From Sideroxydans sp. (GTDB lineage Bacteria; Pseudomonadota; Gammaproteobacteria; Burkholderiales; Gallionellaceae), in assembly GCA_011620315.1 (NCBI GenBank), contig WOZO01000099.1, positions 1 to 36,308 on the forward strand: DNA of 36,308 nt, in the 5' to 3' direction. Positions 631-16,531 of the stretch are shown here, one piece after another. The number at the start of each line of letters is the position of its first letter. The stretch's first letter is position 1. Made by a program: the position numbers and the translations under genes. The notes beneath the pieces were generated by a model. The model saw nothing but the letters and a program-made list of their open reading frames with translations, was not told where the DNA came from and searched no databases.

Positions 631-647
631 CTCGAAAACCTCGAATA

Positions 648-761
648 GTCCACGAAAAACACGAAAGACACGAAAATGAAAAATGCCGCTCCCGCCCGCT
701 TACATTTCATGATGGAAAGGTTCATGAGTTTTGTTCGTGATTTTTTATGAATTTCGTGGAC
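648..761. repeat. Palindromic intergenic repeat, GTCCACGAAA family, copy 1
   Basis: The stretch between moeA and mogA begins with GTCCACGAAA (648-657) and ends with its exact complement TTTCGTGGAC (752-761). Inside each arm are further CACGAAA-type units on one side and TTCGTG-type units on the other. The same arms recur at 19626-19689 and 21813-21935, with a reduced form at 33709-33730. It looks like a non-coding mobile or REP-like element. No transposase is present. Confidence 0.8.
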
Positions 762-781
762 AACTGACTTTGCCAAGTTCA

Positions 782-2020: not shown

Positions 2021-2598
2021 TTCAACTCCTGTGCCGCTTGATGATCCTGCGGCGTATCCAGATCGACAAAACTGCGGAACTGCGTATCGTAATCACGCAA
2101 CTCCGCCTCCTCCACATAACGCACATCCAGTTGCTGCAACACGGCACGCACACGCTTCTCCCCCGCAGCCTGCATCTCGCGCATGGTGGCCAGCGCAGTC
2201 TGCGCATAGAACGCGAACAAGGGTTGCGGATGGCCGCCTATCAGCGGCACCACGGCCTGATAGTCGCCGCGCAACTCGGCCATGCGTTCGATGACGGCAG
2301 ACTGGATGAACGGCATGTCGCACGCGACGGCGAACATCCACGGTGTATCAACCTGCTCCAACCCCGCCACCAGCCCGGCCATCGGCCCGCCGTCTGCCTG
2401 TGCATCGCACACCTGCGGCAACACCACCTCGGCGCGAGGTTGCCGCACGCTGACAATGACCTGCAAGAAGGATCGTTGCATGGTGGCCGTCGCACGCTGC
2501 AGCAAGGACACGCCATCCAGCAGCAAGCCAGCCTTGTCCTGTCCCATGCGACTGGAATCGCCACCGGCGAGGATGAGCGCGGTGCAGTCTTCGATCAT
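2017..2598 (-). CDS. mobA: Molybdenum cofactor guanylyltransferase MobA
   Basis: MobA transfers GMP to molybdenum cofactor to make the guanine-dinucleotide form used by DMSO-reductase-family enzymes. I place the start at the ATG 2596-2598, which overlaps the mobB stop as ATGA. The reading frame is open further upstream, but that extension lies inside mobB and is low-complexity. From this start the protein is 193 residues and opens with the nucleotidyltransferase signature LILAGGDSSRMGQDKAGL (residues 8-25). A VACDMPF metal-binding motif follows. Length matches MobA. The GTG of moeA overlaps its stop. Confidence 0.94.
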   Translation of the reverse strand: MIEDCTALILAGGDSSRMGQDKAGLLLDGVSLLQRATATMQRSFLQVIVSVRQPRAEVVLPQVCDAQADGGPMAGLVAGLEQVDTPWMFAVACDMPFIQSAVIERMAELRGDYQAVVPLIGGHPQPLFAFYAQTALATMREMQAAGEKRVRAVLQQLDVRYVEEAELRDYDTQFRSFVDLDTPQDHQAAQELK

Positions 2599-3086
2599 TT
2601 CCCCGCCTGTTGCAGGATGAACGCGATGATGCCGTCCACATCGTCCAGCGCGAAATGCGGCAACTGTGGATGCGCTTCCTCCACATCCGTCACCAGCGCG
2701 ACCACGCCCTCGTCCGGCGTGCAACGCGGCTGCGACGAACACGCACGACGCAACACCTCGATCTTCGCTCCCGGTGCATGCGAGAAACCTTCCGCCAGCA
2801 CCAGATCGGCCTTACCCAGGAAGCGCTCGGCCAGTTGCTGCGGCTCGCGTTGCTCGGCCTGCGTATCGACCAACTGCACGCCGCCCTGCGTCACCAGCAG
2901 GCTCATCGCCGCGCCTGCCTGCGTGTAGCGCCAACTATCCTTGCCCGGCGTATCCAGCTCCACCTTGTGATGCGCATGCTTAATGGTCGCTACGCGCAAA
3001 CCGCGCTGCGTCAGTTCGCGCACCAGCTTTTCGATCAGAGTGGTCTTGCCGGAACCGGAGTGGCCGACGATGGAGATGAGGTTCAT
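2595..3086 (-). CDS. mobB: Molybdopterin-guanine dinucleotide biosynthesis adaptor MobB
   Basis: MobB is a small GTP-binding protein that assists MobA. The 163-residue protein carries a P-loop GHSGSGKTT at residues 8-16, followed by the family pattern ATIKHAHHKVELDTPGKDS, in which the lysine and the histidine pair are conserved. It ends with ATGA overlapping mobA. Its start ATG (3084-3086) overlaps the stop of the upstream acetyltransferase gene in the same way. The overlaps suggest one co-translated unit. Confidence 0.93.
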   Translation of the reverse strand: MNLISIVGHSGSGKTTLIEKLVRELTQRGLRVATIKHAHHKVELDTPGKDSWRYTQAGAAMSLLVTQGGVQLVDTQAEQREPQQLAERFLGKADLVLAEGFSHAPGAKIEVLRRACSSQPRCTPDEGVVALVTDVEEAHPQLPHFALDDVDGIIAFILQQAGK

Positions 3087-3553
3087 GGTTTATTCAATGA
3101 CTGTTGCTGTTTTTCCATACGGACGTGCGGTATCCCGACTTCAACGAATGGCGCTCCCAAGCGTACGTAGCCAAGCTTCTCATAAAAACCGGCAGCACTG
3201 ATGCGGGCATGCAATGAAAGTTGCGTGACACCGCGTGCGGCCAATAGCGCTTCAAGGGTAAGCAGTAACCTGCGCCCGACACCCTGCCCTTCATAGCCCG
3301 CCTTGACTGCCATCTGGCGAAGTTTGGCCTTACCTGGTTTCTGGAGCACTGCGATGACACAAGCGATCAGTTCAGCATCGTGATCGAATAGCCCGAAGTG
3401 CAATTGCTCTTTTTCCTGCTGCAGATCTTCGCTATACAGGCTCAGACCCAGCGGCAGGCGCAAGACTTCGTTGCGCAACTCGCAGGTCTGCTTGTATTCA
3501 TCCGAGCCGAATGTGATCTCACGGAAATCCAGCGCTTCAGCCCGCCAACTCAT
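3083..3553 (-). CDS. GNAT-family N-acetyltransferase
   Basis: This is a cytoplasmic acetyl-CoA-dependent acyltransferase whose substrate cannot be read from the sequence. The protein shows a GNAT core: a beta-strand pair (GLFDHDAELIACVIAVL), the acetyl-CoA loop YEGQGVGRRLL, and a C-terminal GFYEKLGYVRLG segment. I choose the ATG at 3551-3553 (156 residues) because GGAG lies about 10 bases upstream. A TTG two codons earlier sits too close to that site. The gene overlaps the 3' end of hsdR by 17 bases and the start of mobB by ATGA. It therefore bridges the defence island and the molybdenum-cofactor genes and may belong to either. Confidence 0.82.
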   Translation of the reverse strand: MSWRAEALDFREITFGSDEYKQTCELRNEVLRLPLGLSLYSEDLQQEKEQLHFGLFDHDAELIACVIAVLQKPGKAKLRQMAVKAGYEGQGVGRRLLLTLEALLAARGVTQLSLHARISAAGFYEKLGYVRLGAPFVEVGIPHVRMEKQQQSLNKP

Positions 3554-6500
3554 CTGCAATCATCTCCGCCTGCCTCAACACCGTCTCCGTCGCCAGCAAC
3601 TGCATGTCCGGCGGATAGCCGAATTGGCGCAACGTGCGCTTCACGATCACTTTCAGTTTCGCCTTCACGCTTTCTTTAATCGTCCAGTCTATGGAAGCGT
3701 TCTCGCGCACCCGTTGCGTCAACACCACGGCCAGCTCGCGCAGCTTGTCTTGCTGCATCAACTCTTTTGCGCTGTCGTTGTTCGCCACTGCCGTATAGAA
3801 CGCATATTCGAATTCGCTCAAACCCAAATGCGTAGCTTCGGCATCGGAGGCGACTATCTCCTTGCTGATCTTGATCAGCTCTTCCATCACCTCGGCGGCG
3901 GTCAGCACCTTGTTGTGATATTTCTTGATGGAAGCCTCCAGCATTTCCATCAGGCTCTTGCTCTGCACCAGGTTCTTCCTGGCGCGCGCCTTCAGCTCGT
4001 CGCTGAGCAGCTTCTTCAATACCTCCAGCGCAATATTCTTATGCTTGAAGCCCTTCAGTTCCGCCAGGAATTCTTCGGACAGCACCGAAATATCAGGCTT
4101 CTTGATGCCCGCCGCATCGAATACGTCGATCACCTTTTCCGACACCAGCGCCTGATCGATCACCTGCCGGATGGTGGTTTCGATCTCTTCGTTACTACGC
4201 CCTTCGCCCGTGCCGTCGAACTTCGCCAACCGTGCCTTCACCGCCTGAAAGAAGCCGACCTCGTCCTTGGCGTCCATCGCCTGCTCGTGCGGAATGGCGA
4301 TGGCGAATGCCTGCGATAGCGCCGTCACCTCGTTGATGTAACGCTTGCGCCCATCTTCCAGCCCAAGGATGTGTTCTTCCGCCGCCAGAATCAGTGAGAG
4401 CTTCTTCGAAGTTTCCGCCGCGAAATACTCCTCGTAGGCAAAGCCGCTATACATCGCCGAAACCACCTCCAGCTTTTCCAGCATCAGGCTCACCGCCTGC
4501 TCCTGCGCCAGCGTCGGGTCGCCCTTGCCGCCCGCGTCGGAATAGAACGACAACGCTTCCTTCAAATCGGCGGCAATGCCCAGATAGTCCACCACCAGGC
4601 CGCCGGGCTTGTCCTTGTAAACACGGTTCACCCGCGCAATCGCCTGCATCAAATTGTGGCCCTTCATCGGCTTGTCGATGTAGAGCGTGTGCATGCTGGG
4701 CGCATCAAATCCGGTCAGCCACATATCGCGCACGATCACCAGCTTGAGCGGGTCGTCGTCGTTCTTCATGCGCTCGGCCAGCGCGCGGCGTTGCTCCTTA
4801 CTGGTGTGGTGCATCGCCATTTTCGGGCCATCACTGCTGGCCGCCGTCATCACCACCTTGATTGCGCCTTTTGTCAGATCGTCATCGTGCCATTCCGGCT
4901 TGAGTACTTTGATCTCGGCATACAGCTCGGCGGCAATGCGCCGCGACATGCATACGATCATGCCCTTGCCCGCAAACACCTGCTGCCGCGCTTCAAAGTG
5001 CGTCACGATGTCTTTGGCGATGTTTTTAATGCGCTGCTCACTGCCGATCAGCGCTTCCATCTTGGTCCACTTGGCCTTGGCTTTCTGCGTCTCGGTCAGC
5101 TCGTCCTGATCCAGCTCTTCGTCCAGCTCGGCGATCAGCTTCTTGCCCTCGTCGGAAAGGCCCACTTTCGCCAAACGGCTCTCGTAATAGATACGCACCG
5201 TCGCGCCATCTTCCACCGCCTGCGCGATGTCGTAGATGTCCACGTAGTTGCCAAACACCGCCGGGGTGTTCACATCGGTCTTTTCAATCGGCGTGCCGGT
5301 AAAGCCCAGATAGGTCGCATTCGGCAGCGCATCGCGCAGGTATTTGGCAAAGCCGTACACTACCTTCTTGCCGATCACCTCGCCGCTGGCATCCTTGTCG
5401 TCAACCGTCTTGGCGCTGAAGCCGTATTGCGTGCGGTGCGCTTCGTCGGCGATCACCACAATGTTTTTGCGGTCGGACAACTGCTCGTACACATTGCCTT
5501 CTTCCGGCTGGAATTTCTGGATGGTGGAAAAGATCACCCCGCCCGAAGCCACCTTGAGCAAGTCTTTCAACTGCTCGCGGTTCTCGGCCTGCACCGGCTC
5601 CTGCCGCAGCAACTGCTTGGAGGCGGCGAAGGTATCGAACAACTGATCGTCCAGATCGTTGCGGTCGGTGATCACCAGTATCGTCGGGTTATCCAGCGCC
5701 AGCACGATCTTGCCGGTGTAGAACACCATCGACAGCGACTTGCCCGAACCCTGCGTATGCCACACCACCCCGGCCTTCTTGTCGCCCTTGGGCTGTTGCG
5801 CCACACCGGGCAAACCGTAACTGGCCGGGGTCTGTGCCACCTTCTGCTCCACCATGTCCGCCGCACGCAAGGTGGAAGCCACCGCCGCATTCACCGCGTA
5901 ATACTGGTGATACGCCGCCAGCTTCTTCACCGTACTGATCGTGATCACACCGGTCTTGGGGTCTTCCTTCTTCGATTTTTCAAAGACGATGAAATGGCGC
6001 ACCAAATCCAGCAGCGTCGCCTTGTTCAGCATGCCGTTGATCAACACCTCCAACTGGCTCACCAGATGCGAAGCCTCCGCCTTGCCGTCCGCGCTCTTCC
6101 AGCTCATGAAGCGCGAATAGCCCGCCGAGAGCGAACCCGCCTTGGCCTCCAGCCCGTCGGAGATCACCACAAATGCGTTGGCAGTAAACAGGCTGGGGAT
6201 GGCCTGCTTGTAAGTTTCCAGTTGCTGATAGGCCGCTTTGATGGTGGCGTTTTCATCAACGGCGTTTTTCAGCTCGATCACCACCAGCGGCATGCCGTTC
6301 ACAAACAGCACCAGGTCTGGGCGCTTGTTCTGGTGATTCTCGATCACCGTGAACTGGCTGGCGACGACGAACTCGTTGTTCTCGGGCTTGGCAAAGTCAA
6401 TCAACCACACCCGCTCGCCGCGCTCGTCGCCATCCTTGTGGGCGGATACCGGCACCCCCTCCGTCAGCAAACGGTGGAACGCCTCATTGTTCGCCAGCAA

Positions 6501-6743
6501 CTCGGGCGAATGAATGCGCTGTACTTCTTTCAAACCAGCTTGCAGCAATGCGGGTGACAGCTTGGGGTTGATGCGCTTCAGCGCCGCCTCCAGCCGCCCG
6601 GTCAGCAACACCTCATCGTAGCGACTACGTTCCGGCCTATCGCCATCCGGCGCAATATCTGGCGCATGGATATAGTCGTAGCCCAAGCGCTCGAATAGCT
6701 TGATAGCGAAATCTTCGATGGCGGATTCAGTGAGCCTGGTCAT
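3537..6743 (-). CDS. hsdR: Type I restriction endonuclease subunit HsdR
   Basis: HsdR is the DNA translocase and nuclease of a type I restriction-modification complex. From the ATG at 6741-6743 it has 1,068 residues, a full-length subunit. An N-terminal PD-ExK nuclease is seen (RPDLVLF ... VVIELK, about residues 141-159). The SF2 helicase motor has GSGKS at 332-336, DEAH at 433-436, then GFTGTP and a motif VI region QAIARVNRVYKDK. I prefer this ATG over an open extension 11 codons upstream because two degenerate copies of this same start elsewhere in the island also begin at the equivalent MTK residue. The start overlaps the hepT 3' end by 17 bases. Its partners hsdS and hsdM are about 4 kb upstream, separated by inserted cargo. 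Confidence 0.95.
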   Translation of the reverse strand: MTRLTESAIEDFAIKLFERLGYDYIHAPDIAPDGDRPERSRYDEVLLTGRLEAALKRINPKLSPALLQAGLKEVQRIHSPELLANNEAFHRLLTEGVPVSAHKDGDERGERVWLIDFAKPENNEFVVASQFTVIENHQNKRPDLVLFVNGMPLVVIELKNAVDENATIKAAYQQLETYKQAIPSLFTANAFVVISDGLEAKAGSLSAGYSRFMSWKSADGKAEASHLVSQLEVLINGMLNKATLLDLVRHFIVFEKSKKEDPKTGVITISTVKKLAAYHQYYAVNAAVASTLRAADMVEQKVAQTPASYGLPGVAQQPKGDKKAGVVWHTQGSGKSLSMVFYTGKIVLALDNPTILVITDRNDLDDQLFDTFAASKQLLRQEPVQAENREQLKDLLKVASGGVIFSTIQKFQPEEGNVYEQLSDRKNIVVIADEAHRTQYGFSAKTVDDKDASGEVIGKKVVYGFAKYLRDALPNATYLGFTGTPIEKTDVNTPAVFGNYVDIYDIAQAVEDGATVRIYYESRLAKVGLSDEGKKLIAELDEELDQDELTETQKAKAKWTKMEALIGSEQRIKNIAKDIVTHFEARQQVFAGKGMIVCMSRRIAAELYAEIKVLKPEWHDDDLTKGAIKVVMTAASSDGPKMAMHHTSKEQRRALAERMKNDDDPLKLVIVRDMWLTGFDAPSMHTLYIDKPMKGHNLMQAIARVNRVYKDKPGGLVVDYLGIAADLKEALSFYSDAGGKGDPTLAQEQAVSLMLEKLEVVSAMYSGFAYEEYFAAETSKKLSLILAAEEHILGLEDGRKRYINEVTALSQAFAIAIPHEQAMDAKDEVGFFQAVKARLAKFDGTGEGRSNEEIETTIRQVIDQALVSEKVIDVFDAAGIKKPDISVLSEEFLAELKGFKHKNIALEVLKKLLSDELKARARKNLVQSKSLMEMLEASIKKYHNKVLTAAEVMEELIKISKEIVASDAEATHLGLSEFEYAFYTAVANNDSAKELMQQDKLRELAVVLTQRVRENASIDWTIKESVKAKLKVIVKRTLRQFGYPPDMQLLATETVLRQAEMIADELAG

Positions 6744-7086
6744 TCCCGTTGCCATGGTCCTGCGCCAGCATGGCACGGATACTCTCTTCGAGCGCGGGCA
6801 GGTTCTTATCGATCACGGCTGCAACTGTCAGCGGATCGATGTCCCCCAGATAGTTATGCACGAGAATATTGCGGAAGCCGCTGATTTCCCGCCATGGGAT
6901 ATTGGGGTATGCCGCTTTCTTGTCGTCCGGCAACAATTGCGTGGCTTCGGAAAGCGTCTGCAAATTGCGTAGCGCGGCATCGTAAAGCACCTCATCGGCG
7001 ACGATGTCACCACGCATCCGTATGCGTTGGATTTTTGCAATAGCGTCCAGGATATGCAGCGCGTAGGGCTGCCACGGCTTGCTCAT
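6727..7086 (-). CDS. hepT: HepT-like HEPN ribonuclease toxin
   Basis: HepT is the toxin of MntA-HepT pairs, a HEPN-fold RNase neutralised by AMPylation near its active site by MntA. The 119-residue helical protein contains the family motif RX4HXY exactly, as RNILVHNY (R72, H77, Y79). The ATG (7084-7086) overlaps the mntA stop as ATGA, the usual coupled arrangement. Its 3' end overlaps hsdR by 17 bases. The pair sits inside the hsd operon as one of three cargoes in the hsdS-hsdR gap. Active-site residues are intact, so it should be functional. Confidence 0.9.
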   Translation of the reverse strand: MSKPWQPYALHILDAIAKIQRIRMRGDIVADEVLYDAALRNLQTLSEATQLLPDDKKAAYPNIPWREISGFRNILVHNYLGDIDPLTVAAVIDKNLPALEESIRAMLAQDHGNGNDQAH

Positions 7087-7373
7087 AACTCTACCGCCTC
7101 ACCCGTCACCCGTTCACGGATGTGGCGATTGAGTTCATGCTCCGGCACCAACTCCACCTTTCGGTGCAGCAGATTCTCCAGCCCCAGGGCAAGCGGCATG
7201 CGCTGGGTGAGCAGATCATAACCGCGCGGAAAATCCACCAGAAAATCCACGTCGCTATCGGGCCGCTCCTCGCGCCGGGCAACCGAACCAAACACCCGGA
7301 TATGCAGCGCGCCATATTGCCGCGCCAAAGCCTCAATCCGGTTTTTATTCAGCCGCAATTCGTCCAGCAACAT
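7083..7373 (-). CDS. mntA: MntA-like nucleotidyltransferase antitoxin
   Basis: MntA is a minimal nucleotidyltransferase that modifies and silences its HepT partner. The 96-residue protein has the GSX10DXD signature (G29-S30, then D41 and D43). A third acidic position lies further on (KVELVPE). I choose the ATG at 7371-7373 because AAGGAG lies five bases upstream. An in-frame ATG six codons earlier (7389-7391) overlaps the stop of an hsdS-like fragment as ATGA and is a possible alternative start. This overlap suggests the pair was imported together with the hsdS tail in front of it. Confidence 0.9.
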   Translation of the reverse strand: MLLDELRLNKNRIEALARQYGALHIRVFGSVARREERPDSDVDFLVDFPRGYDLLTQRMPLALGLENLLHRKVELVPEHELNRHIRERVTGEAVEL

Positions 7374-7387
7374 GGGTTCTCCTTTTC

Positions 7388-7577
7388 TCATTCAGCAACA
7401 TTGGCGCGATTATACGTCCAGCCCTGCGTATCCTGCTCCAGCGCCACGCACACCTCGCCGCTCATCAGCTTGGACAGGAAGGGGATCGCCACCCGGTGCG
7501 TGGATGTAGTCGTAGCCCAGGCGCACGAACAGCTTGATGGCGAAGTCTTCGATGGCGGATTCAGTGAGCTTGGTCAT
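7388..7577 (-). pseudogene. Fused remnants: hsdR 5' end joined to hsdS 3' end
   Basis: Read on the minus strand, the ATG at 7575-7577 opens a copy of the first ~28 HsdR codons (MTKLTESAIEDFAIKLF ...). It matches the intact HsdR start at 26 of 28 residues and ends just after the IHAP motif. Around 7485 the homology switches to the end of an hsdS gene in another frame (LSKLMSGEVCV, 7388-7486), whose stop overlaps an ATG of mntA as ATGA. Reading straight through from the ATG gives only a 55-codon frame ending at 7410. Neither piece can encode a working subunit. It marks a recombination boundary between two cargoes. A related fusion lies at 9047-9202. Confidence 0.85.
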
Positions 7578-7872
7578 GTTGTTGTCCTGACCTAAAGATA
7601 GCGTTTTTTCTTTTAAATATCATTTTTAAATAATCAAAACAATGGCGATAGGTAATTGAATGTTATTGACATAATTTCAGCCCTTCTTTCAGTGCTCTTT
7701 TAAATCGCGCTTTATATCTCATTTAAAAGAAGCCATTCTGACTCTTTAAAAGCTCCCCGTTTATGCACAAAGATATTGCACTTTAGCTGGCTATCCCTTA
7801 AAGTTCGCCCCGTCTCATCCACCATGTGTGGAAAGAGCATTCGAAGCCGCGTCAGAGCGATCTGGGGCGGCT
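7578..7872. other. AT-rich gap with an inverted repeat; no convincing gene
   Basis: This stretch between the 155-residue cargo gene and the hsdR/hsdS remnant is clearly richer in A and T than its neighbours. It contains an imperfect hairpin at 7694-7733, with arms GCT-CTTTTAAAT and its complement carrying one bulge and a 15-base loop. Several further TTTAAA-type words occur. A 37-codon minus-strand frame (7712-7825) is open, but I recognise nothing in it. It could hold a promoter for mntA-hepT-hsdR or be the scar of a lost gene. Confidence 0.5.
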
Positions 7873-8340
7873 TCAGCCATTCTGGTTCCTGAATTGTTCT
7901 CTTTCCCGAATAAACGTCGCCCTACGGTGGCTCTCCGCACAGTACGCGGATTTCAAAAGATAGTAGCCGCTTCGCTCAGCCAGGATCACCACAAAATTCT
8001 CCGCTTCATGCCAGATCACCACATGCGTATTGCCCTTGCGCTTATTTTTCCACCAGCTTATTTCCGTATCTGTTTCGGCATTGGCAATCAGATAGGCAAT
8101 CCAGCCCATCCGCTCGCAACGCCTGAAATCCGGCAGGCGATCATCTTCAACATTGCCTTCTGAAATCACATGCCAGAAGCCGAAGTGCTTGCCCTGCGAT
8201 TCAGGCCGGTACTGGCAACTTATCTTCAATCCCCCGAATCTCAGATTTCCATTGACGACCGTATCGAGATAAACCGAATACAGCCGCTCGACATACGCCG
8301 GCCAGTTACCGTCAAAAAGAATCAACTCGGGCAGTGCCAT
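7873..8340 (-). CDS. Unrecognised 155-residue protein, possible BECR-fold nuclease partner of the DUF3800 gene
   Basis: I do not recognise this protein with certainty. It is soluble, has no signal peptide, and contains FWHVIS (55-60), ISWWKNKR (94-101) and a C-terminal segment ILAERSGYYLLKSAY (119-133) followed by HRR (138-140) and an E/R-rich helix. A strand with the shape Y-L-L-K-(T/S)-A-Y followed by H-R-R recalls small phage-associated RNases of the Barnase/EndoU/colicin (BECR) superfamily. That is memory-based inference, not proof. The start ATG shares one base with the DUF3800 stop (TGATG), so the two are probably co-translated. Placement among known anti-phage modules suggests a defence or toxin role. 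Confidence 0.6.
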   Translation of the reverse strand: MALPELILFDGNWPAYVERLYSVYLDTVVNGNLRFGGLKISCQYRPESQGKHFGFWHVISEGNVEDDRLPDFRRCERMGWIAYLIANAETDTEISWWKNKRKGNTHVVIWHEAENFVVILAERSGYYLLKSAYCAESHRRATFIREREQFRNQNG

Positions 8341-9050
8341 CAGACAGCATCCCCATTGCTTGCCTGCCAGACTAACAAATTAAACTTCTCTTCCCGATAC
8401 AAAGTATTCCGCTCAAGGCTGTAGCCGGACAAGTGCTTGATCTGCTCGATCAGAGCCTGCTTGGCCGGACTGGTCGTCAGACCACGATGCAAATACGACA
8501 ATGCGCCGATCAGCAAATCGGCGACCTGCAATAGCTCCGACTCATGCGAACGGATTTGCTGGATACGCTGAATACTTTCCCTGTCGAAATCGAAACGGCT
8601 GTTGCACAAACAATCGTGCAGCCCCTGCACCATCTGCTGGCTCCGCGTATCCTTGATATCCAGATAGATTGCGTATTGATGATTCGGGACAAAAATGATT
8701 TTGAGCAGGGTGAAAAACATCTTGTAGTAAAAGGCATCGTGGTTCTGCTCGAACTGTGCATGATTCAACAGCGACTTATCGGGAATGACGATGCCCCTGA
8801 AATGCAGCTCCGGCGTGCTGAAAAACAAATCCACCAGCGCCGCATAAAAATCCATCTTGGCGGGCGAAACCTTGGTCCACTTGATCTCGAACTGACGCGA
8901 CAAACCATGCGCCTGCTTGAGCTGCCTGATTTGCTCAGCGATACGCTTAACTGCCGACCTTTCGCACCAGATCGCCCCCAGACTCATCGCTTTGATATGG
9001 TCATTCTCCAGATGGCACGACTCGTCACAGTAAATATTGTAAAAACTCAT
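8340..9050 (-). CDS. DUF3800 domain protein
   Basis: DUF3800 proteins are predicted RNase-H-like enzymes that are often found in defence islands; their activity is not established. The 236-residue protein shows the expected acidic pattern: IYCDES at residues 6-11, EIKW at 55-58, YLDIKDTRS at 129-137 and QVADLLIGA at 175-183. All predicted metal-binding acidic residues appear present. It begins with an ATG overlapping the stop of a 51-codon hsdR/hsdS chimeric frame (ATGA) and ends overlapping the 155-residue partner gene. It is therefore tied into the hsd operon by translation coupling on both sides. Confidence 0.85.
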   Translation of the reverse strand: MSFYNIYCDESCHLENDHIKAMSLGAIWCERSAVKRIAEQIRQLKQAHGLSRQFEIKWTKVSPAKMDFYAALVDLFFSTPELHFRGIVIPDKSLLNHAQFEQNHDAFYYKMFFTLLKIIFVPNHQYAIYLDIKDTRSQQMVQGLHDCLCNSRFDFDRESIQRIQQIRSHESELLQVADLLIGALSYLHRGLTTSPAKQALIEQIKHLSGYSLERNTLYREEKFNLLVWQASNGDAV

Positions 9051-9202
9051 GATGCGATTCCTTCATAAGTCACTTGCGTTTCACCGTTCGTCAGCATGGG
9101 CAGCAAGGTATTTCCATCCGGCGCGTGGACGCGGTCGTTGCCCAAGCACTCGAACAGCTTGATAGCGAAATCTTCGATGGGGAATTCGGTGGGCTTAGTC
9201 AT
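9047..9202 (-). pseudogene. 51-codon in-frame hsdR-head/hsdS-tail chimera
   Basis: The ATG at 9200-9202 overlaps the kwaB stop (ATGA) and opens a copy of the HsdR N-terminus (MTKPTEFPIEDFAIKLF ...). It matches the intact start at 20 of 28 residues through HAP. Without a frame change it then becomes an HsdS-type tail (NTLLPMLTNGE), and it stops overlapping the DUF3800 ATG. No family protein is this short, so it is a relic. It has stayed open, and both of its ends keep ATGA overlaps, so it may serve as a translational coupler. The HsdS tail differs from those at 7388-7486 and at the end of the intact hsdS. Confidence 0.85.
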
Positions 9203-10170
9203 CTGGCATCTACGTTAGCAGCTTCTTCCACACTATCTTTCGCCACGCTTTCATAGTGAAAATTCGTCAACTCGGAAGTCAGGAAATCATCCATCAGCAG
9301 TTTAATAAATAAATCCTTGGAAACCTGCGTATCGAGCAGAATTTTATCCCCAGCCTCGTTGAACCGTATTCTCCCGGCCAGCTTGGGGAATGTTCTGCAA
9401 AACTGGATTATTGATGCATTGGGGACGCGGGCGCTTAATACAGGAGATGATCTGGCAACTTTTGTAAATCTTCTTGCATACTTAACGTCGTCAAGAAGTT
9501 CACGAAGCACATCTGGATTTTCAACAATTGAAATCGATTCAATGGCTGAAATTCCCAAGGCTGCCTCCCTGACAATAGCCTCATGAAACCCGAAGCTTCT
9601 TTCAAGTGCATGAAGATCGATAACCAATAATTCCTCATTCACTCTCATAAACTGAAAGCCAGCGCTGACCCTGAGAAATTCATCATTGATCTGTTCTAGC
9701 CTGTGCCTTGCTTTCTTCAAAAAGAAGCTGCCCCGACCGAAGATGTTTACTGGAGCCATCGTTTTGTATAAAACAACCTGGCCAATATCATTGCCTATCT
9801 CGATCATGAGTGCCTTGATGTCAGACAAATCACTTTCAGCTAAATCCAGAAGAGAGTGGTTATCGGTCTCGGTTACGCTTGCCATTGCCGCCAGACCATC
9901 CGGCACATCAATATCGTAAACGTAGATCGCATGGGCTCTTTCATCAGACGTCGATAAATCAAGAACCGCAAGCTCGTCCCGCTCCATTATCTCCTCACGA
10001 ATACTTTGCATGAAAAGAGCCTTGAGCCCCGGCAGTGCATCACCTTCAATGTCAAGTTTCCTCGGGGCCAAATCGCCTTGGCTTTTCAAAATCGCATAAA
10101 CAGACACACCAATCTCGTCGATCCTATCGAAAAATGGCTGTAACGCTGCTCTTAGCTCTGCTGTATTCAT
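9199..10170 (-). CDS. kwaB: Kiwa anti-phage protein KwaB (DUF4868)
   Basis: KwaB is the cytoplasmic effector of the Kiwa anti-phage system and works with the membrane protein KwaA. The 323-residue protein has the DUF4868 pattern: an N-terminal part with ELAVLDLSTSDERAHAIYVY, a central APVNIFGRGSFFLKKA, then IIQFCRTFPKLAGRIRF and a highly typical C-terminal DTQVSKDLFIKLLMDDFL segment. Length fits the family. The ATG overlaps the kwaA stop (ATGA). The stop overlaps the ATG of a 51-codon hsdR/hsdS relic. The DNA is visibly more AT-rich than the dsr and molybdenum genes, consistent with transfer. Confidence 0.86.
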   Translation of the reverse strand: MNTAELRAALQPFFDRIDEIGVSVYAILKSQGDLAPRKLDIEGDALPGLKALFMQSIREEIMERDELAVLDLSTSDERAHAIYVYDIDVPDGLAAMASVTETDNHSLLDLAESDLSDIKALMIEIGNDIGQVVLYKTMAPVNIFGRGSFFLKKARHRLEQINDEFLRVSAGFQFMRVNEELLVIDLHALERSFGFHEAIVREAALGISAIESISIVENPDVLRELLDDVKYARRFTKVARSSPVLSARVPNASIIQFCRTFPKLAGRIRFNEAGDKILLDTQVSKDLFIKLLMDDFLTSELTNFHYESVAKDSVEEAANVDAR

Positions 10171-10751
10171 GCCGAAACACCTTTTACGTAATAGATTCGA
10201 TCATCCAACTTGATATATGAGACCTTTTGACCAGCCTGAATTCGCTCCTTGCAGACCAGAATGATTCCATTCCTTTCGCCGGTCTTGAAATGACCGTCTG
10301 CACGGTAGATGTGAAAGCCAAGAAGTGCGAGCGATGGGTTTGCATAGAACAAGTCGGTCTTTATGTAAATCGCCCCCATGACAACTAGAAGCAGCCCAAG
10401 AACAATCATGTGCCGCCCACTTCCGAAATCAAAACTGATTAATGGAACTACATAGGTTGCCAAGAAGGTGAGGTGCTCATAATTGATCCCTTCGCATTTC
10501 TTGATTTCAAAAGGAATCTCAGTCGTACCTTTCAGGTCAAAGTCAAACTTCCTGTATGCGTAGAGACAATACGCAAGAAGGAGCAAATAAATGATGGCAA
10601 TAGGATTGGACTCCGCCAACGCTATCCACAAAGCTCGATCATTGATGAGAAATAGGCCTTCAGGGAGTTTCGCGGTAATGATGATAAAGAAGACAAATAG
10701 CAGGGCAAGCGACAAAACATACAGATCAATCTTTCGGCGAATACTGCTCAT
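10167..10751 (-). CDS. kwaA: Kiwa anti-phage membrane protein KwaA
   Basis: KwaA is the inner-membrane component of Kiwa. The 194-residue protein has four predicted membrane segments at roughly residues 9-27, 50-67, 93-107 and 114-131, then a soluble C-terminal domain of about 60 residues. The YEHLTFLATYVVPLISFDF segment and the following FYANPSLALLGFHIYR match my memory of the family. Directly downstream is kwaB, overlapping by ATGA, which is the strongest support for the assignment. Its own ATG overlaps the hsdS stop (ATGA), so Kiwa is translated as part of the restriction operon. Confidence 0.8.
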   Translation of the reverse strand: MSSIRRKIDLYVLSLALLFVFFIIITAKLPEGLFLINDRALWIALAESNPIAIIYLLLLAYCLYAYRKFDFDLKGTTEIPFEIKKCEGINYEHLTFLATYVVPLISFDFGSGRHMIVLGLLLVVMGAIYIKTDLFYANPSLALLGFHIYRADGHFKTGERNGIILVCKERIQAGQKVSYIKLDDRIYYVKGVSA

Positions 10752-11980
10752 GTCCTTACCCTCACTTCTCCGCTCATCAGCTTGGGCAGCAGGGTGTCGC
10801 GGAGGGTTTCGAGGGTGCGGATTTGCCGTGAATTTGAGTGCAATTTTGGGACTGCCGATTCTGCGAAAGTATTAAATTCGCCTACAACATCCCTGGATGG
10901 AATCTTGATTTTGTAGCTCTTCAAATGATCCACATCCACACGTTGTCGCCCACTGGAGCCCGCCAAGCACCCCTCTGCGTAATCCCTGAAATCGCCATTC
11001 CTTGCCAAGGTATAGGCGAAGAATGGATGCAGGTTGCCTTTCGGGCGCATCACGATATATTCGGTTGATCCCCAAGCGACTTGTCCATCTTGCAAGAAAG
11101 TTACGTAGGCTGTCTTTCCATTTTCCAAGCACGGTGTGATGCGCGCAAGCAAGGTGTCGCCATTTATGAATTTCGTGCCGGACGAAAACTCTCTGTCATA
11201 CCAACCGTCTGGATTAAATGTTGCATTACTGAGAGCCGCCATTTCCAAATAAGGGGCAATGGAACCCTTCGCCAATTTTCTCGGAGGGTTAAATTCGATC
11301 AGATCGGCAATGACTCCATCCTCCTGCGCCTCTTCCACGAACCACTGGCGGAACAGAGTTTCGGCCATGGCTTCGAGGGTTTTGTTCTGGCGGTGCAGCA
11401 GGTCGATTTTGTCGTCGAGGCTGCTGAGAACGGCGGCGATGGATTTCTGTTCGGCGGGGCGAGGCACAGGCACTTCAATTTCTTTTAGCGATGTCAGTGG
11501 ATTGCTAATTGACGGCACTCCAACTTGTGATTCGTATTTAAGAATCTGATGTTGTCCAAACTCTGACTTAAAGAAGTAGAACAAAAAATCGCTGTTCATC
11601 AATTCTGGATTTACAGTCAATTTCATTCCAGACTGAGAAATTACATAGCGAGGAAATTTTCCCGATGGGATTAGTCCAACTTGCCCAATTGTCCCTCGAT
11701 GCGTAAAAACTAGATCGCCAGCCTTACAGTTACTTCCGAGCAAGTCATCCGCTTTTTCTTCTGTCAAATATACGAATTCTCCACCCACATATTTCGCATA
11801 GTTAAGGTTTGTTCCTCGAATTACTGGAACACCATATTCAACAAAGTTTTCAGCTTTTATATTCGAGCCAAATGGCCCCATGGCGATTGCTCGTTTGTCT
11901 TCGCCCTTGATATTCGCGACTTTCTTCACATCCCAATCTTTGGGAATTCTTCCAAAGTCGGCTTCCTGCCAAGCGCTCAT
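10748..11980 (-). CDS. hsdS: Type I restriction specificity subunit HsdS
   Basis: HsdS selects the bipartite DNA target for both methylation and restriction. The 410-residue protein shows two variable target-recognition domains (about residues 1-170 and 225-365) separated by a conserved helical region ([20 protein letters not shown], about 178-197). A second helical region ends in [12 protein letters not shown]. Both domains look complete. The ATG overlaps the hsdM stop and the stop overlaps kwaA, both as ATGA. The recognition domains are AT-rich compared with the conserved parts, as is common in this family. The target sequence cannot be predicted by eye. Confidence 0.94.
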
Positions 11981-13551
11981 GCCTTCACCTTCGCCAGATT
12001 CTCGGCAATCGCTTTGTTCAGCTTCGCCTCTTCCAGCAACTGCGCTTCAAATTCCGCTTTCAGTGCGGCGAAGCGCTCGGCAAAGTTGAAGTCGTCCTCT
12101 TCGTCGGGCAGGCCAACATAGCGGCCTGGTGTGAGCACGTAGTCCAGTTCTGCCACGCGCTCTAATGGCACGGAGGCACAGAAACCTTTGATGTCTTGGT
12201 ACTGAGCACCCTCTCCCCCTGCCCCTCTCCCGCTTGCGGGCGAGGGGAGCTGGCGCCAAGCATGGTAGGTGTCGGCGATCTGCTGGATGTCTTCGTGCGA
12301 GAGTTCTTTGGTGCGGCGGTTGATGAGGTGGCCAAGGTTGCGCGCGTCGATGAAGAGGATTTCGTCTTTGCGCGGATGGCCGTTGGCTCGGGCGCGGTTC
12401 ATGAACCACAGCGCCGCCGGTATCTGGGTATTCAGGAACAGTTTGGCGGGTAGGTTGACGATGCAGTCGATGAGGTTGCCATCGGCGATGAGCGCCTTGC
12501 GGATGTCGCCTTCGCCGCTGGTCTTGCTGGTGAGCGCGCCTTTGGCGAGTACCACGCCCGCTCTTCCATTGGGAGCGAGGTGGTAGATGAAGTGCTGCAA
12601 CCAGGCGAAGTTGGCGTTGCCTGCGGGCGGCGCGCCGTATTTCCAGCGACCATCATTGCGCAGCAGTTCGCCGCTCCAGTCACTGACGTTGAACGGCGGG
12701 TTGGCGATGATGTAATCGGCCTTGAGGTCTTTGTGCGCATCGTTGAGGAAGGAGCCTTCGTTGTTCCACTTCACCTGCGAGGCGTCGATGCCGCGGATGG
12801 CGAGGTTCATCTTGGCCAGCCGCCAGGTGGTCTGGTTGCTTTCTTGCCCGTAGATGGAGATGTCGTTGACGCGGCCCTGGTGTTCTTCGACGAACTTTTC
12901 CGATTGCACGAACATGCCGCCCGAGCCGCAGCAAGGGTCGAACACGCGGCCTTTGTAGGGATCCAGCATGGCGACCAGCAATTCGACAATGCTGCGCGGC
13001 GTGTAGAACTGCCCGCCCTGCTTGCCTTCAGCCAGCGCGAATTCGCCGAGGAAGTATTCGAACACATGGCCCAGCACGTCGGCGCTGCGTGCCTTGGCAT
13101 CTCCCAGCGCGATGTTGCCCACCAGGTCGATCAGGCCGCCGAGGCTGGCGGGGTCGAGGTTTTGCCGCGCGAACACCTTTGGCAGCACGCCCTTGAGGAT
13201 GGGGTTTTCTTTTTCGATGGCATCCATCGCTGCATCGACATGGCTGCCGATGTCGGGCAGCTTGGCTTTCGCCAGCAAAAACGACCAGCGCGCCTCGGCC
13301 GGCACGAAGAAGATGTTCTCGGCTTTGTATTCGTCCTTGTCTTCTGGATCGGCTCCGGCCGTTTCGCCTTCGCCCTTTTGCAGCTTGGTGTACATCTCCT
13401 CGAACGAGTCGGAGATGTATTTCAGGAAGATGAGGCCAAGTACCACGTGCTTGTATTCTGCGGCGTCTATGTTCTTGCGCAGCTTATCGGCGGCTTTCCA
13501 GAGTTGTTTTTCCAGCGGTTCTTCTTTTATTTCTTTTGGTGCTCTTGCCAT
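11977..13551 (-). CDS. hsdM: Type I restriction methyltransferase subunit HsdM
   Basis: HsdM is the adenine-N6 methyltransferase subunit. From the ATG at 13549-13551 it has 524 residues; a TTG ten codons upstream is open but less likely. It has the helical HsdM N-domain ([15 protein letters not shown]), the motif before the SAM site ([13 protein letters not shown]), the SAM-binding [10 protein letters not shown] (about 205-214) and the catalytic NPPF (284-287). Residues ~434-448 ([12 protein letters not shown]) are the translation of a palindromic repeat that inserted without breaking the frame, in the C-terminal region after the catalytic core. It starts the island, 71 bases downstream of moaE. 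Confidence 0.95.
12209..12253. repeat. REP-like palindrome inside hsdM, in frame
   Basis: A C-rich stretch leads into a near-perfect hairpin at 12222-12247 (CCCCTCTCCCGC, TT, GCGGGCGAGGGG). Related hairpins occur at 31236-31257 between dsrB and dsrA and within dsrN. In hsdM it is a multiple of three in effect, since the frame stays open on both sides. It adds a glycine/serine/proline-rich loop to the protein. Confidence 0.75.
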
Positions 13552-13622
13552 TTGTTGTCCCTGATTGTCACGCCCGGTCAATTCACCGACTGAATGCTAT
13601 CAGAATTAGCAGAGCGACTACG

Positions 13623-14048
13623 CTATGGGTGCTGCGTTACCCACGACTCGCCCTCCGGCGTGACTTCCTTCTTCCAGATCGGCACGCGCTGCTTGAGTTC
13701 GTCGATCATCCAGCGGCAGGCGTCGAAGGCGGCGGCGCGGTGGGCGGCACCGGCGGCGATGAAGACGATGTTGTCACCGGCTTGCACGGTGGTGACACGG
13801 TGCACGATGCGGGCGTCGAGCAGGTCGAACTTGCTGATGGCTTCTTCGCGCAGTTTGCGCATCTCGGCCAGCGCCATACTGCCGTAGGCTTCGAAGCTGA
13901 TCTGACTAACGTCGCGGCCTTCGGAGAAGTCGCGCGCGCAGCCGAGGAACGTGGCGATGCCGCCCATGCGTTTGGAGGATGCTTTGAGGGCGGCGATCTC
14001 GGCGTCTTGCGAGAAGTCTTCCTGCTGGATGCGGACAGGGTCGGTCAT
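13623..14048 (-). CDS. moaE: Molybdopterin synthase catalytic subunit MoaE
   Basis: MoaE is the large subunit of molybdopterin synthase. With thiocarboxylated MoaD it adds two sulfurs to cyclic pyranopterin monophosphate. The 141-residue protein has GGIATFLGCARD near residues 29-40, FEAYGSMALAEM, HRVTTVQAGD and the lysine-bearing PIWKKEV at the active-site end. It lies downstream of moaD, separated by a 125-bp inverted-repeat element, and is the last molybdenum gene before the restriction island. Confidence 0.94.
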   Translation of the reverse strand: MTDPVRIQQEDFSQDAEIAALKASSKRMGGIATFLGCARDFSEGRDVSQISFEAYGSMALAEMRKLREEAISKFDLLDARIVHRVTTVQAGDNIVFIAAGAAHRAAAFDACRWMIDELKQRVPIWKKEVTPEGESWVTQHP

Positions 14049-14059
14049 ACGCCCTCCTT

Positions 14060-14184
14060 CGTCATTCCCGCGCAGGCGGGAATCCAGTTAAAACAAATAA
14101 ACCGCGAAGCGGACAAGAGCGAATGCTGTCCTGTTGCGCGGGATAGATTTGACCATCTGGATTCCCGCGTTCGCGGGAATGACG
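14060..14184. repeat. 125-bp inverted-repeat element (MITE-like) between moaD and moaE
   Basis: The ends are 28-base inverted repeats (14060-14087 and 14157-14184) agreeing at 26 of 28 positions, beginning CGTCATTCCCGCG. Each arm is itself a small palindrome (CCCGC ... GCGGG). The centre includes another short palindrome, CCGCGAAGCGG. No coding function is visible. Elements with ends of the TTCCCGCG...GGGAAT type are common dispersed repeats in proteobacteria. I see no clear flanking duplication. Confidence 0.8.
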
Positions 14185-14209
14185 GAGTTGTGGGGATACG
14201 CTCGGCATC

Positions 14210-14449
14210 TCAACCTCCACTGAACTTCGCCATGAAGGCGATCTCGTCGTTGTCGTTGAGCGCAGTCTGCTTGTCGTGCACCTGCTCCTGGTTGACGGCG
14301 ATGAAGCTGACGATGCTGAGTGCGCCGGGATGGAGCATGCCGACCTTGTGCGTGATGTCGTGCAGGGTCATGCCATCGGTGTATTCGATATCCATCTCGC
14401 GCGTCTGCACGCGGTCGGCGACGGGGCCGAAGAACAGGGCCTTGATCAT
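14210..14449 (-). CDS. moaD: Molybdopterin synthase sulfur-carrier subunit MoaD
   Basis: MoaD is a ubiquitin-like sulfur carrier whose C-terminal glycine is thiocarboxylated. The protein ends in the required GG (FMAKFSGG). I start it at the ATG 14447-14449 (79 residues, MIKALFFGPVADR). An ATG two codons upstream has no room for a ribosome site, whereas GGGGGA sits six bases before this one. A duplicated copy of the surrounding nine bases at the moaC stop shows that this ATG originally overlapped moaC. An inserted repeat now separates the two genes. Confidence 0.92.
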   Translation of the reverse strand: MIKALFFGPVADRVQTREMDIEYTDGMTLHDITHKVGMLHPGALSIVSFIAVNQEQVHDKQTALNDNDEIAFMAKFSGG

Positions 14450-14544
14450 TTGCATTCCCCCAGTTGCTGCGCAACTGATCCTTCGATACGCCTGCGTTGC
14501 AGGCTACTCAGGACGAACGGTCGGATGTTGAGCGAAAAGATCAT
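14446..14544 (-). other. 86-bp repeat insertion between moaC and moaD carrying a 32-codon coupling frame
   Basis: The nine bases GATCATTTG occur at 14444-14452 and again at 14539-14547, directly flanking an 86-base insert. The insert holds two perfect small palindromes (14461-14477 and 14490-14504). The duplication is what a transposed element leaves. On the minus strand the ATG overlapping the moaC stop (ATGA) opens a 32-codon frame across the insert, whose TGA overlaps the moaD ATG in the same way. The insert thus preserves a chain of stop-start overlaps. Whether the peptide is made or matters is unknown. Confidence 0.7.
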
Positions 14545-15038
14545 TTGTCCTCCTCGCGGCGCCATGTACCGCTCTTCCCGCCCCGCTTCTCGTCCAGCTG
14601 AACGTTCTCGATGCGCATGCCACGATCAATGGCTTTGCACATGTCATAGATGGTGAGCAGCGCGACGTTGACGGCGGTCAGTGCTTCCATCTCGACGCCG
14701 GTCTGGCCGACGCAGCTGGCGGTGACTTCGGCGTGCAGGCCGACGCAGCCTTGCGCGTCCGCTTCGGTCACTTCGGCAAATTCCACCTGCACGCCGGAGA
14801 GCGCGATGGCGTGGCACATGGGGATGATGTCCGGCGTGCGCTTGGCGGCCATCACCGCACCGACATCGGCCACGGCCAACACGTTGCCTTTGCCGATCTT
14901 GTCGTCGCGGATGCGTTGCAGGGTCTGCGGATGCATGCGGATGGTGCCGCTGGCGATGGCCACGCGGATGGTGGTTTCCTTGCCCGAGACGTCCACCATG
15001 CGGGCGCGCCCGGATTCGCTGAAATGGGTCAGGCTCAT
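14541..15038 (-). CDS. moaC: Cyclic pyranopterin monophosphate synthase MoaC
   Basis: MoaC converts the MoaA product to cyclic pyranopterin monophosphate. The 165-residue protein has the family features: MVDVSGKE (14-21), the [18 protein letters not shown] stretch, [12 protein letters not shown] with conserved Cys-His, [13 protein letters not shown] and the C-terminal [11 protein letters not shown]. Length is normal. It lies one base downstream of moaA. Its stop forms an ATGA with the old moaD start position, now the beginning of an inserted repeat. Confidence 0.96.
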
Positions 15039-15039
15039 C

Positions 15040-16026
15040 TCATCCTCCTGTCATCGACATGATGCGTATGATCTTGCCGGGTTGTTCGCTGAACTCGTGG
15101 CGCTCGGGCTTGAGTTCGATGGCGCTGCGGATGGCAGCTTCCAGTTCTTCGTCGCTGCAAACCGCGCGCAACATGGGGCGCAAGGGCAAGCTGTTTTCCT
15201 GCCCCAGACACAGGTAGAGCGTGCCATCCACCGACAGGCGCACGCGGTTGCAGGTCTCGCAGAAGTGCTGCGACATGGGGGTGATGAAACCGATGCTGGA
15301 CTTGCCGTCCGCTGTGACCAGATAGCGTGCGGGGCCGCCGCCGCCGATGATGCCGTCCACCAGACCGAAGCGTTCTTGCAGGCGCTGGCGGATCGGTTGC
15401 AGGTCGACGTAAGCCGCGTTGCGGCCGGTCTCGCCCATGGGCATGGTCTCGATCAGGCGCAGCACGAAACCGTGGCGGAAGCAGAACGCGGCCATGTCCT
15501 CCACCTCGTCCTCATTCACACCGGCCATCACCACCATGTTGATCTTGATCGGCGCGAAGCCGCTGGCCTTGGCCACCAGCAGCCCTTTCAGTATCTCGTC
15601 CAGCGCATCGCGGCGCGTGATCTGTTGCAAACGTTCGGCGCACAGCGAATCGAGGCTGATGTTGAGGCGGGTGACACCTGCCGCCTTGAGGGCTGCGGCG
15701 TGCTGCGCCAGATGGGTAGCGTTGGTGCTGAGCGACAGGTCATCCACGCCCGGTAACACCGACAAACGCGCGGCCAATCCGCTCAGGTCGCGACGCAGCA
15801 GCGGTTCGCCGCCGGTGATGCGGAAGCGCGAAGTCCCCATGCGCGCGAAGGCGGCCACCACGCGTTCGATCTCGTCGAAGTTCAGCCAGTCCGCCGGCTG
15901 CTTGTAGTCGCTGAAACCCTGCGGCATGCAGTAGCTGCAGCGCAGGTCGCAACGGTCCGTCACCGACAATCGAAGATAGTCGATGCGGCGGCTGAAACGG
16001 TCTTGCAATGTGGCAGCGGTAGTCAT
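15040..16026 (-). CDS. moaA: GTP 3',8-cyclase MoaA
   Basis: MoaA is a radical-SAM enzyme that starts molybdenum-cofactor synthesis from GTP. I place the start at the ATG 16024-16026 (328 residues). The open frame continues upstream, but that extension is basic, unlike MoaA, and lies partly in the spacer. It has the radical-SAM cluster motif CX3CX2C (C26, C30, C33), [11 protein letters not shown], and the C-terminal second cluster with CETCNRV and a later cysteine in LYLCLG. It ends in GG as MoaA should. Confidence 0.95.
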
Positions 16027-16093
16027 TCCTGATTCGTTACCTGTTATTTGATGCTGTACTCGATGACATGCATTGTAGCGGTAGCAGCCCCGC

Positions 16094-16531
16094 TCATTTT
16101 CTGTGTCTTCCTTGGTAATGCAGATGTGCGGCATGCACCACGGCCGAGAACGGAATGTCCCCTTCTTCGGGCCAGTTTTGCAGTGCCGCACGCATCAGTT
16201 CATCCACATCCGTCACCTCGGCATCGCCGCGCAACACGTCCTGCAACCCGCGCAATCCGCCGCACTGGATGCGCATCTCCTGACCATGCGGGATGGGGGC
16301 TTCGTCGTGCAGGGTGTGGATAGCGAAACCGAAGTTGTGACGCAAGGCGTCGTGCATGCGGACACAACGCTGCTGCAGGTCGGCTTCACGGCAAACGATC
16401 AATTCGCGTTCCGCCAGATTCATGCGCCCGGCCTGCGAGCAGGCGACACAGCCGGAGAACAATGCCATGCCGAACGGACACAGCAAAGGATGCGTCGCTT
16501 CCAGTGTCTGCCGGAAGGCCGCCTCGTCCAT
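16094..16531 (-). CDS. Conserved-looking cysteine-rich hypothetical protein
   Basis: I do not recognise this 145-residue protein. It has no signal peptide or membrane segment. Its N-terminal third concentrates cysteines: LLCPFGMALFSGCVACSQA gives C18, C28 and C31, and C47 and C56 follow. That spacing could bind a metal or iron-sulfur cluster. It lies four bases downstream of the 75-residue gene and about 70 bases upstream of moaA. Position between the dsr-linked genes and moaA hints at redox or sulfur metabolism. It could also be a molybdoenzyme maturation factor. Confidence 0.65.
   Translation of the reverse strand: MDEAAFRQTLEATHPLLCPFGMALFSGCVACSQAGRMNLAERELIVCREADLQQRCVRMHDALRHNFGFAIHTLHDEAPIPHGQEMRIQCGGLRGLQDVLRGDAEVTDVDELMRAALQNWPEEGDIPFSAVVHAAHLHYQGRHRK

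Follow-up and report, generated by a model that had tools for sequence, protein, structure and literature searches.

The type I restriction operon considered here lies on the minus strand of contig WOZO01000099.1 (Sideroxydans sp., assembly GCA_011620315.1), of which the whole 36,308-nt stretch analysed is referred to as the window. The operon is complete, with full-length hsdM, hsdS and hsdR reading frames, and foreign genes lie inside it, as judged by Pfam and PADLOC. Following the minus strand from hsdS to hsdR, the slot between these two genes holds kwaAB, a short relic that we call scar 2, a DUF3800 gene pair, an AT-rich gap, a second relic (scar 1) and mntA-hepT (Table 1). The embedded proteins match known or candidate defence families in PADLOC (KwaA, KwaB, PDC-M04A/B and PDC-S09), kwaA adjoins kwaB, as Kiwa requires, and a motif scan found GSx10DxD in mntA and Rx4H in hepT, which we take to be the motifs of these proteins; mntA-hepT is presumably of the type named MNT-HEPN. 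Nothing unusual was seen in the cargos themselves; how they came to be stacked between hsdS and hsdR is the subject of this report. The parts of the stack and the coordinates given for them in an earlier reading, made from the DNA letters alone (the sequence-only reading), all hold.

Table 1. Genes and relics of the hsd operon, listed from hsdM to hsdR; positions are those of the window.
Feature	Position	Strand	Evidence
hsdM, type I methyltransferase subunit	11977..13581	-	Pfam N6_Mtase 1.1e-107, HsdM_N 1.4e-26
hsdS, intact specificity subunit	10748..11980	-	Pfam Methylase_S 6.9e-21
kwaA (Kiwa)	10167..10751	-	PADLOC KwaA 7.7e-77; no Pfam match
kwaB (Kiwa)	9199..10170	-	Pfam KwaB 1.8e-42; PADLOC KwaB 2e-121
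Scar 2 R', first ~86 nt of an hsdR	9117..9202	-	72/87 nt against intact hsdR; 21/29 residues
Scar 2 S', 3' end of the hsdS formerly before DUF3800	9047..9111	-	Alignment to L128, L129
DUF3800 protein, PADLOC candidate PDC-M04A	8340..9050	-	Pfam DUF3800 9.5e-14; PDC-M04A 2.2e-95
DUF3800 partner protein, PADLOC candidate PDC-M04B	7873..8340	-	PDC-M04B 1.2e-54; no Pfam match
Lost AlbA_2 (Schlafen-like) cargo, remnant: final codons KESEWLLLNEI plus spacer before an hsdR	7578..7757	-	
Scar 1 R', first ~85 nt of an hsdR	7493..7577	-	26/28 residues
Scar 1 S', 3' end of an hsdS	7388..7477	-	KLMSGEV tail, own frame; hsdS-tail alignment
mntA-like nucleotidyltransferase	7083..7391	-	Pfam NTP_transf_2 5.1e-10; PADLOC PDC-S09 4.5e-32
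hepT-like HEPN	6727..7086	-	Pfam HepT-like 7.4e-20; 17-nt overlap with hsdR start
hsdR, intact restriction subunit	3537..6743	-	PADLOC REase_I, E-value printed as 0; Pfam HSDR_N 1.2e-53

Each scar is a single fused unit in which the head of an hsdR (its first ~85 nt, R') runs into the tail of an hsdS (its last ~65-90 nt, S'), in frame in scar 2 (9202-9047) and frame-shifted in scar 1 (7577-7388). In local DNA alignments to the intact hsdR, scar 1 scored 65 and scar 2 scored 57, where the best of 300 base shuffles reached 17 and 15; against the intact hsdS the scores were 27 and 20, with shuffle maxima of 17 and 14, and all four comparisons thus exceed the best shuffle. The scar 1 head agrees with the intact hsdR at 26 of 28 residues, as the sequence-only reading had counted, and the scar 2 head at 21 of 29 rather than the 20 of 28 given there; its observation that the hsdS tails of the locus diverge past the LxxGE motif was borne out for all three. 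At the DNA level, the scar 1 head is identical to the hsdR of a related locus (L059; loci of relatives are given by such handles throughout) at 80 of 85 nt and to its own hsdR at 74 of 83. ATGA overlaps join kwaB to scar 2, the scar 2 S' to DUF3800 and the scar 1 S' to mntA (at an upstream ATG), like the 4-nt ATGA shared by the stop of the intact hsdS and the start of kwaA; in each scar, therefore, the left side resembles a genuine hsdR 5' end and the right side a genuine hsdS 3' end. Consistent with this, the scar 2 S' together with DUF3800 aligns to an intact hsdS 3' end followed by DUF3800 in two relatives (L128, 73.9% over 628 nt; L129, 72.8% over 626 nt), and both alignments begin 2 nt past the 90-nt stretch assigned to the scar 2 R'. 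In L129 DUF3800 directly follows hsdS, whose tail (EVRVEIEGTFE) equals that of scar 2 (ETQVTYEGIAS) in length. For scar 2, then, the arrangement that the sequence-only reading anticipated, an hsdS tail directly before its cargo, exists in nature, and the fragments match the ends of hsdR and hsdS, not parts of the cargo genes.

The ATGA overlaps at kwaB/R', S'/DUF3800 and S'/mntA would also suit scars that work as in-frame R'S' mini-genes, carrying ribosomes from cargo to cargo and kept by selection, and by our reading the fusion is in frame in scar 2, L067, L052, L074, L066a and L129. By the same reading the frame is broken or stopped in scar 1, L062, L059 and L109, and we regard functional scar peptides as distinctly unlikely.

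Unscarred counterparts of these junctions occur in other genomes. The cargo and the adjoining R' are colinear at the DNA level with a cargo and an intact hsdR start elsewhere for 6 of the 19 scars examined: L052 with L072 (96.5% over 743 nt), L142 with L141 (93% over 761 nt), L109 with L091 (92% over 687 nt), L062 with L089 (88% over 780 nt), L067 with L058 (75% over 852 nt) and scar 1 of the window with L058 (77% over 269 nt). On the other side, at 4 of the 21 sites examined, S' and the cargo that follows it have a colinear counterpart of more than 600 nt elsewhere that extends into an intact hsdS end (scar 2 of the window, with DUF3800, with L128 and L129; L074 with L064/L065/L143; L125 with L082; L138b with L082), and weaker cases are L129 (with L144) and L066a (with L067). 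Genomes with cargo directly between hsdS and hsdR and no detected scar, which the sequence-only reading had supposed to exist, were found as well (L091, L141, L144, L082). The gene orders are in accord: L091 runs hsdS, VapBC-like pair, RhuM-like gene, hsdR, and L109 runs hsdS, VapBC-like pair, RhuM-like gene, R'-S', second toxin-antitoxin-like pair, hsdR; the order of L144 (hsdS, transposase-like gene, RhuM-like gene, hsdR) reappears behind the DUF3800 pair in L129. Gene names in these four loci were read from the sequence, related RhuM and transposase proteins being assigned by Pfam.

The AT-rich gap of the window had been taken as a mere gap, but the end of a lost fourth cargo survives in it. 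In L058, a Sideroxydans metagenome-assembled genome (MAG) of the same genus as the window, the end of an AlbA_2-type gene precedes an intact hsdR; aligned to this stretch, the right part of the gap plus the scar 1 hsdR head is identical in 214 of 275 columns, and the last codons KESEWLLL are recognisable in the remnant; the AlbA_2 label comes from Pfam for the related protein of L067 and, for L058, from likeness in the gene list. The left part of the gap extends the sequence that follows M04B in the Methylophilaceae locus L129, with 90 of 108 positions identical. A fourth cargo therefore once stood in the gap and was lost except for its tail, and the scar 1 hsdR head came from the operon of that cargo. 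The earlier description of each cargo as framed by its own tail and head thus fails for the DUF3800 pair, the head behind which belonged to the lost AlbA_2 cargo.

The most informative locus was L142, in comparison with L141. The two match at 95% over 4785 nt, which cover their cargo block and ~60 nt of the hsdR start, and the hsdR head stranded in L142 is identical to the intact head of L141 at 54 of 55 positions and to its own intact head at 38 of 48. Behind this relic lie another RhuM-like gene and then the intact hsdR, which in 20-nt windows is 70-80% identical to that of L141 up to ~nt 120 (one window at 95%) and 85-100%, mostly 95-100%, identical from ~nt 120-139 to nt 600. The L141-like head of the relic and the identity switch within hsdR show that a foreign tract, consisting of the new cargo and ~120 nt of hsdR, was joined on its left without homology and on its right by a homologous crossover ~120-140 nt into hsdR. 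Simple loss in L141 would not account for this, as the L141 hsdR differs from that of L142 between nt ~80 and ~120. The structure of L142 is the footprint of homology-facilitated illegitimate recombination (HFIR), in which one end of a linear DNA integrates by homology and the other by illegitimate joining (PMC3240628). There HFIR is a laboratory process, of low frequency in E. coli conjugation, whereas the hsd case is deduced from natural loci. One homologous end of an acquired tract is demonstrated for L142 only, not for the window.

An hsdR-head/hsdS-tail joint would also be left by tandem duplication of hsdS tail, cargo and hsdR head within one genome, followed by homologous replacement of one cargo copy, and in 3 of 18 relics (L109, L037, L054) the nearest hsdR head is indeed that of the same locus. 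In the other 15 it is not, with margins that are often small; the L142 R' sides with the hsdR of the other locus by the counts just given; and no locus with a duplicate cargo around a scar was noticed by eye in the gene lists, RhuM-like paralogues aside, a dedicated search not having been made. We consider this origin highly improbable.

Our favoured account, which we hold to be probable, is that the stack was built by HFIR between hsd operons at the hsdS-hsdR slot. The junction would gain defence and toxin-antitoxin modules when pieces of another hsd operon enter the cell. Incoming donor DNA (hsdS tail, cargo B, hsdR) would pair by homology within hsdR, and its other end would be joined without real homology, in some cases where a few bases coincide, to the resident hsdR that follows cargo A, within the first tens of codons of that gene, giving the order hsdS, cargo A, R'-S', cargo B, hsdR. 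The resident hsdR head would be left stranded as the scar and hsdR restored by the 5' end of the donor; the restriction genes and the old cargo would be kept, new cargo added, and repetition would produce stacks, from which cargos can subsequently be lost by decay or deletion, as the AlbA_2 remnant shows. Long scars would be rare because long hsdR or hsdS repeats would recombine away. The fused scars, their recurrence, the one-sided colinear counterparts and the L142 event are direct observations; that the two scars of the window arose along this route in one step, and in what order, is what we infer from them. Of the earlier proposal, successive capture at the hsdS-hsdR junction stands, and recombination within conserved hsd ends does not: the boundary joint links an hsdR head to an hsdS tail, two unrelated genes, and therefore is not homologous recombination within those ends. 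In L142 homology acts at the opposite end from this joint, inside hsdR.

Scars of this kind recur. One set of loci comprised the best 80 of 124 relatives; in 65 of these the hsdS end and the hsdR start could both be resolved, and in 63 the gap between them measured at least 60 nt; across all loci both ends could be placed in 77, giving 75 gaps of at least 60 nt (167 kb in total) and two loci without a gap. To those 63 the set of 75 adds the window and a further 11 loci; at least four of the latter were chosen for a flagged relic (L037, L054, L138, L140), and rates from this set are biased upward by the relic-chosen loci. L064 and L065 are near-identical, and some loci carry two names (L040 is L059, L042 is L062, L044 is L066, L045 is L067, L050 is L074 and L052 is L089). 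The score for the locus' own hsdR head exceeded the null maximum of 43, obtained from the antisense strand and the reversed head, in 15 of the 75 gaps (14 distinct; the lowest of the 15 scored 55) and in 9 of the 63 gaps not selected for relics. L109 fails this head-only test and scored 73 as a head-tail pair against a null maximum of 54; the scars of L089/L052, L129 and L069 were recognised by eye or colinearity, not by a score threshold. The hsdR N-terminus was matched in 48 of 158 family genomes, and in several of these the intact gene is preceded by another short head. Stranded hsdR heads are present in other hsd subfamilies too (L037, L139, L054, L140), in L139 as ~72 head residues in frame with FLSGELYF, which we read as an hsdS-like tail (the hsdS of this locus was not identified), and such heads also occur in Ferriphaselus R-1 (L066) and Sulfuriferula multivorans (L078), whose records bear no MAG label. 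A plasmid search with the hsdR head returned 503 places in 497 records, all below 60% identity, which is uninformative for short relics.

The fragments in the 75 gaps come from particular parts of the operon. With the window hsdR protein as query (E<=0.05), all 16 matches start within residues 1-5 of the 1068 and extend no further than residue 88; the window hsdS protein gave one match, to residues 389-408 of 410, in a full-length search that is blind to very short tails and missed the window's own two. The full-length window hsdM protein found no fragment at E<=0.05, and reversed-protein control queries had no matches. Confined to hsdR heads and an hsdS tail, and without hsdM, the fragments are therefore the gene ends facing the slot and not random debris. 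The same distribution bears on a two-step route, in which one homologous crossover would first place a whole foreign hsd operon next to the resident one, and the duplicated stretch between (the rest of hsdR, hsdM and most of hsdS) would be deleted later at short matches. Its end product would be the same as that of one step, the end structure of L142 fits either, and L055 looks like a large internal hsdR deletion, its head being fused to an hsdR C-terminal piece at 8997-9251. No intermediates were seen in the 167 kb, hsdM fragments and window-hsdR fragments beyond residue 88 being absent, and the locus' own hsdR beyond residue 70 was matched in 4 of 69 loci, as a repeat in L110 and as short or weak matches in L070, L073 and L125. 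In L110 (Thiothrix eikelboomii) the repeated gap segment matches residues ~150-217 of its own hsdR, after the 70-residue trim, in several overlapping places. We judge the two-step route unlikely and retain HFIR in one step as the working account.

We aligned 18 sites to their best hsdR and hsdS matches, and 11 joints were placeable by our judgement. The two matches overlap at the joint by 8 nt in L067, 5 nt in L059 and 4 nt in L069, a weak scar. Joint positions in hsdR vary by locus from codon ~5 to ~72 (L069 ~5, L052 ~15, L059 ~19, L067 ~45, L139 ~72), so that there is no fixed recombination site of the integron-like kind. If a recombinase recognised a site in the hsdR head and hsdS tail, as in a true cassette system, this could explain why scars 1, 2 and L062 lie at about the same joint position and why, in several loci, the R' ends group around codon 26-34; such a system is barely conceivable given that joints elsewhere are scattered and that the nine hsd-locus proteins, to which the Pfam scan was limited (the rest of the window being listed as open reading frames), include no recombinase family. 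We suspect that scars 1, 2 and L062 have a GCGAY match in common, a reading rather than a computed result, which would require subsequent substitutions as well as a collapse of 12 nt between direct repeats in the hsdR head.

Several observations weigh against HFIR as the origin of the stacks. Microhomology at all joints had to be rejected, being clear in just 3 of the 11 placeable joints, with unexplained bases between the matches at the others, and one of the three, L069, falls within the null range as a head-tail pair (51, null maximum 54). The seemingly common joint position of scars 1, 2 and L062 could represent one old joint that was re-used, not independent events, and unscarred counterparts on both sides were found for no single scar. 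The identity of most short relics does not separate a foreign from an own hsdR head; only L142 is decisive, with L129 leaning the same way, and even there the L142 and L141 hsdR genes are not uniformly close (84-99% in 300-nt windows over the whole gene). The window hsdR has no sharp identity switch against five relatives, and a drop against L068 arises because the L068 hsdR itself breaks off. Discordance between hsdR head and body is equally common in loci without scars, and a head/body switch was accordingly rejected as a mark of stacks.

In many close unscarred pairs hsdR diverges far more over its first ~100 nt than over its body (for example 0.75 against 0.95 in L079/L087). Head divergence in unscarred loci may reflect clean cargo swaps with a crossover just inside hsdR, or weaker constraint.

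Cargo combinations at the slot differ among relatives, as the sequence-only reading had expected. L059 has kwaAB, a scar and mntA-hepT without DUF3800, and L066 has kwaAB, Bro-N, an AbiEi-like gene fused to mntA, and hepT. In the latter the AbiEi-like part and mntA form one 312-codon frame (8646-9584), with no AbiEii open reading frame listed beside it. Among the 158 family genomes, mntA relatives were found in six (E<=1e-20), in all six just before hsdR and in five with hepT between (hepT was not matched in L046); kwaB in three (E<=1e-40), each time followed by an hsdR head; and DUF3800 relatives in four including the window's own (E<=1e-5). In a sample of the order, 2 of 399 genomes besides the window's own carry DUF3800 (E<=1e-40). 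The DUF3800 pair stands before an hsdR in the window and in genomes G105 and G114 and is split in G369; in G416 the contig ends within the DUF3800 gene, behind an hsdM, and the 35% relative in G012 lies outside any hsd locus. In L163 (8183-14246), of another hsd subfamily, DUF3800 comes right after hsdS and its partner ~4.9 kb further on, beside hsdR, as though an insertion had parted the two.

A 2024 preprint by Payne et al. reportedly deals with defence genes located inside type I restriction operons. DarTG2 in enteropathogenic E. coli (PMC12255303) and TgvAB in V. cholerae (PMC11411939) are embedded between hsdS and hsdR, PrrC is embedded in the hsd operon of EcoPrrI (PMC12707154), and the hsdS-hsdR site has been called a potential recombination hotspot (PMC12255303). 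Like the window, these loci carry other defence genes inside an hsd operon, but in the available parts of the papers each holds one module and neither a scar nor an acquisition route is described, whereas the window has several modules with R'-S' scars between them. Going by these sources, cargo embedding in hsd operons is already known; a literature search without bioRxiv preprints and most subscription journals found no published description of hsdR/hsdS scars between embedded genes. The earlier view that the mechanism had not been described was partly wrong, as similar logic has been proposed for the immunity-gene arrays of type VI secretion systems (T6SS), in which insertions would follow one another, homologous at one end and illegitimate at the other, with earlier immunity genes displaced but kept, and gene remnants left behind (PMC5361080). 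The same array-building is proposed for Rhs loci, according to that paper. The T6SS arrays are a close mechanistic precedent; their anchor is located upstream of the effector-immunity module, and it is effectors that are displaced. The hsd stack differs in being anchored at hsdR, in retaining its cargo modules whole and in having scars made of fused pieces from two unrelated genes.

New anti-phage systems come from genes embedded within restriction operons, and the entry route of such genes is unexplained in the available parts of the literature examined. The scars are a sequence signature of past acquisitions: they show which neighbours arrived together and which once adjoined hsdS or hsdR, they reveal lost modules, such as the one to which the AlbA_2 tail in the window belonged, and they make the entry route of embedded genes testable in a transformable strain. 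It is possible, if not quite probable, that type I restriction operons at large accumulate defence modules and record this in scars, such that any entering hsd operon could donate cargo through hsdR pairing and illegitimate joining to the resident head, and scars would date, order and predict embedded defence genes across phyla.

The window genome has a second hsd locus (L037, on contig C12), of another hsdR subfamily, with two stranded hsdR heads between cargo genes, at 6192-6329 and 8232-8426 of the reversed locus, one strong and one weak (E 1e-4). In the window itself, the hsd operon is flanked by an apparent molybdenum-cofactor cluster (85-3559 and 13623-16191, names read off the open reading frames), with mog, moeA and mobAB-like genes on one side and moaE, moaD, moaC and moaA-like genes on the other.

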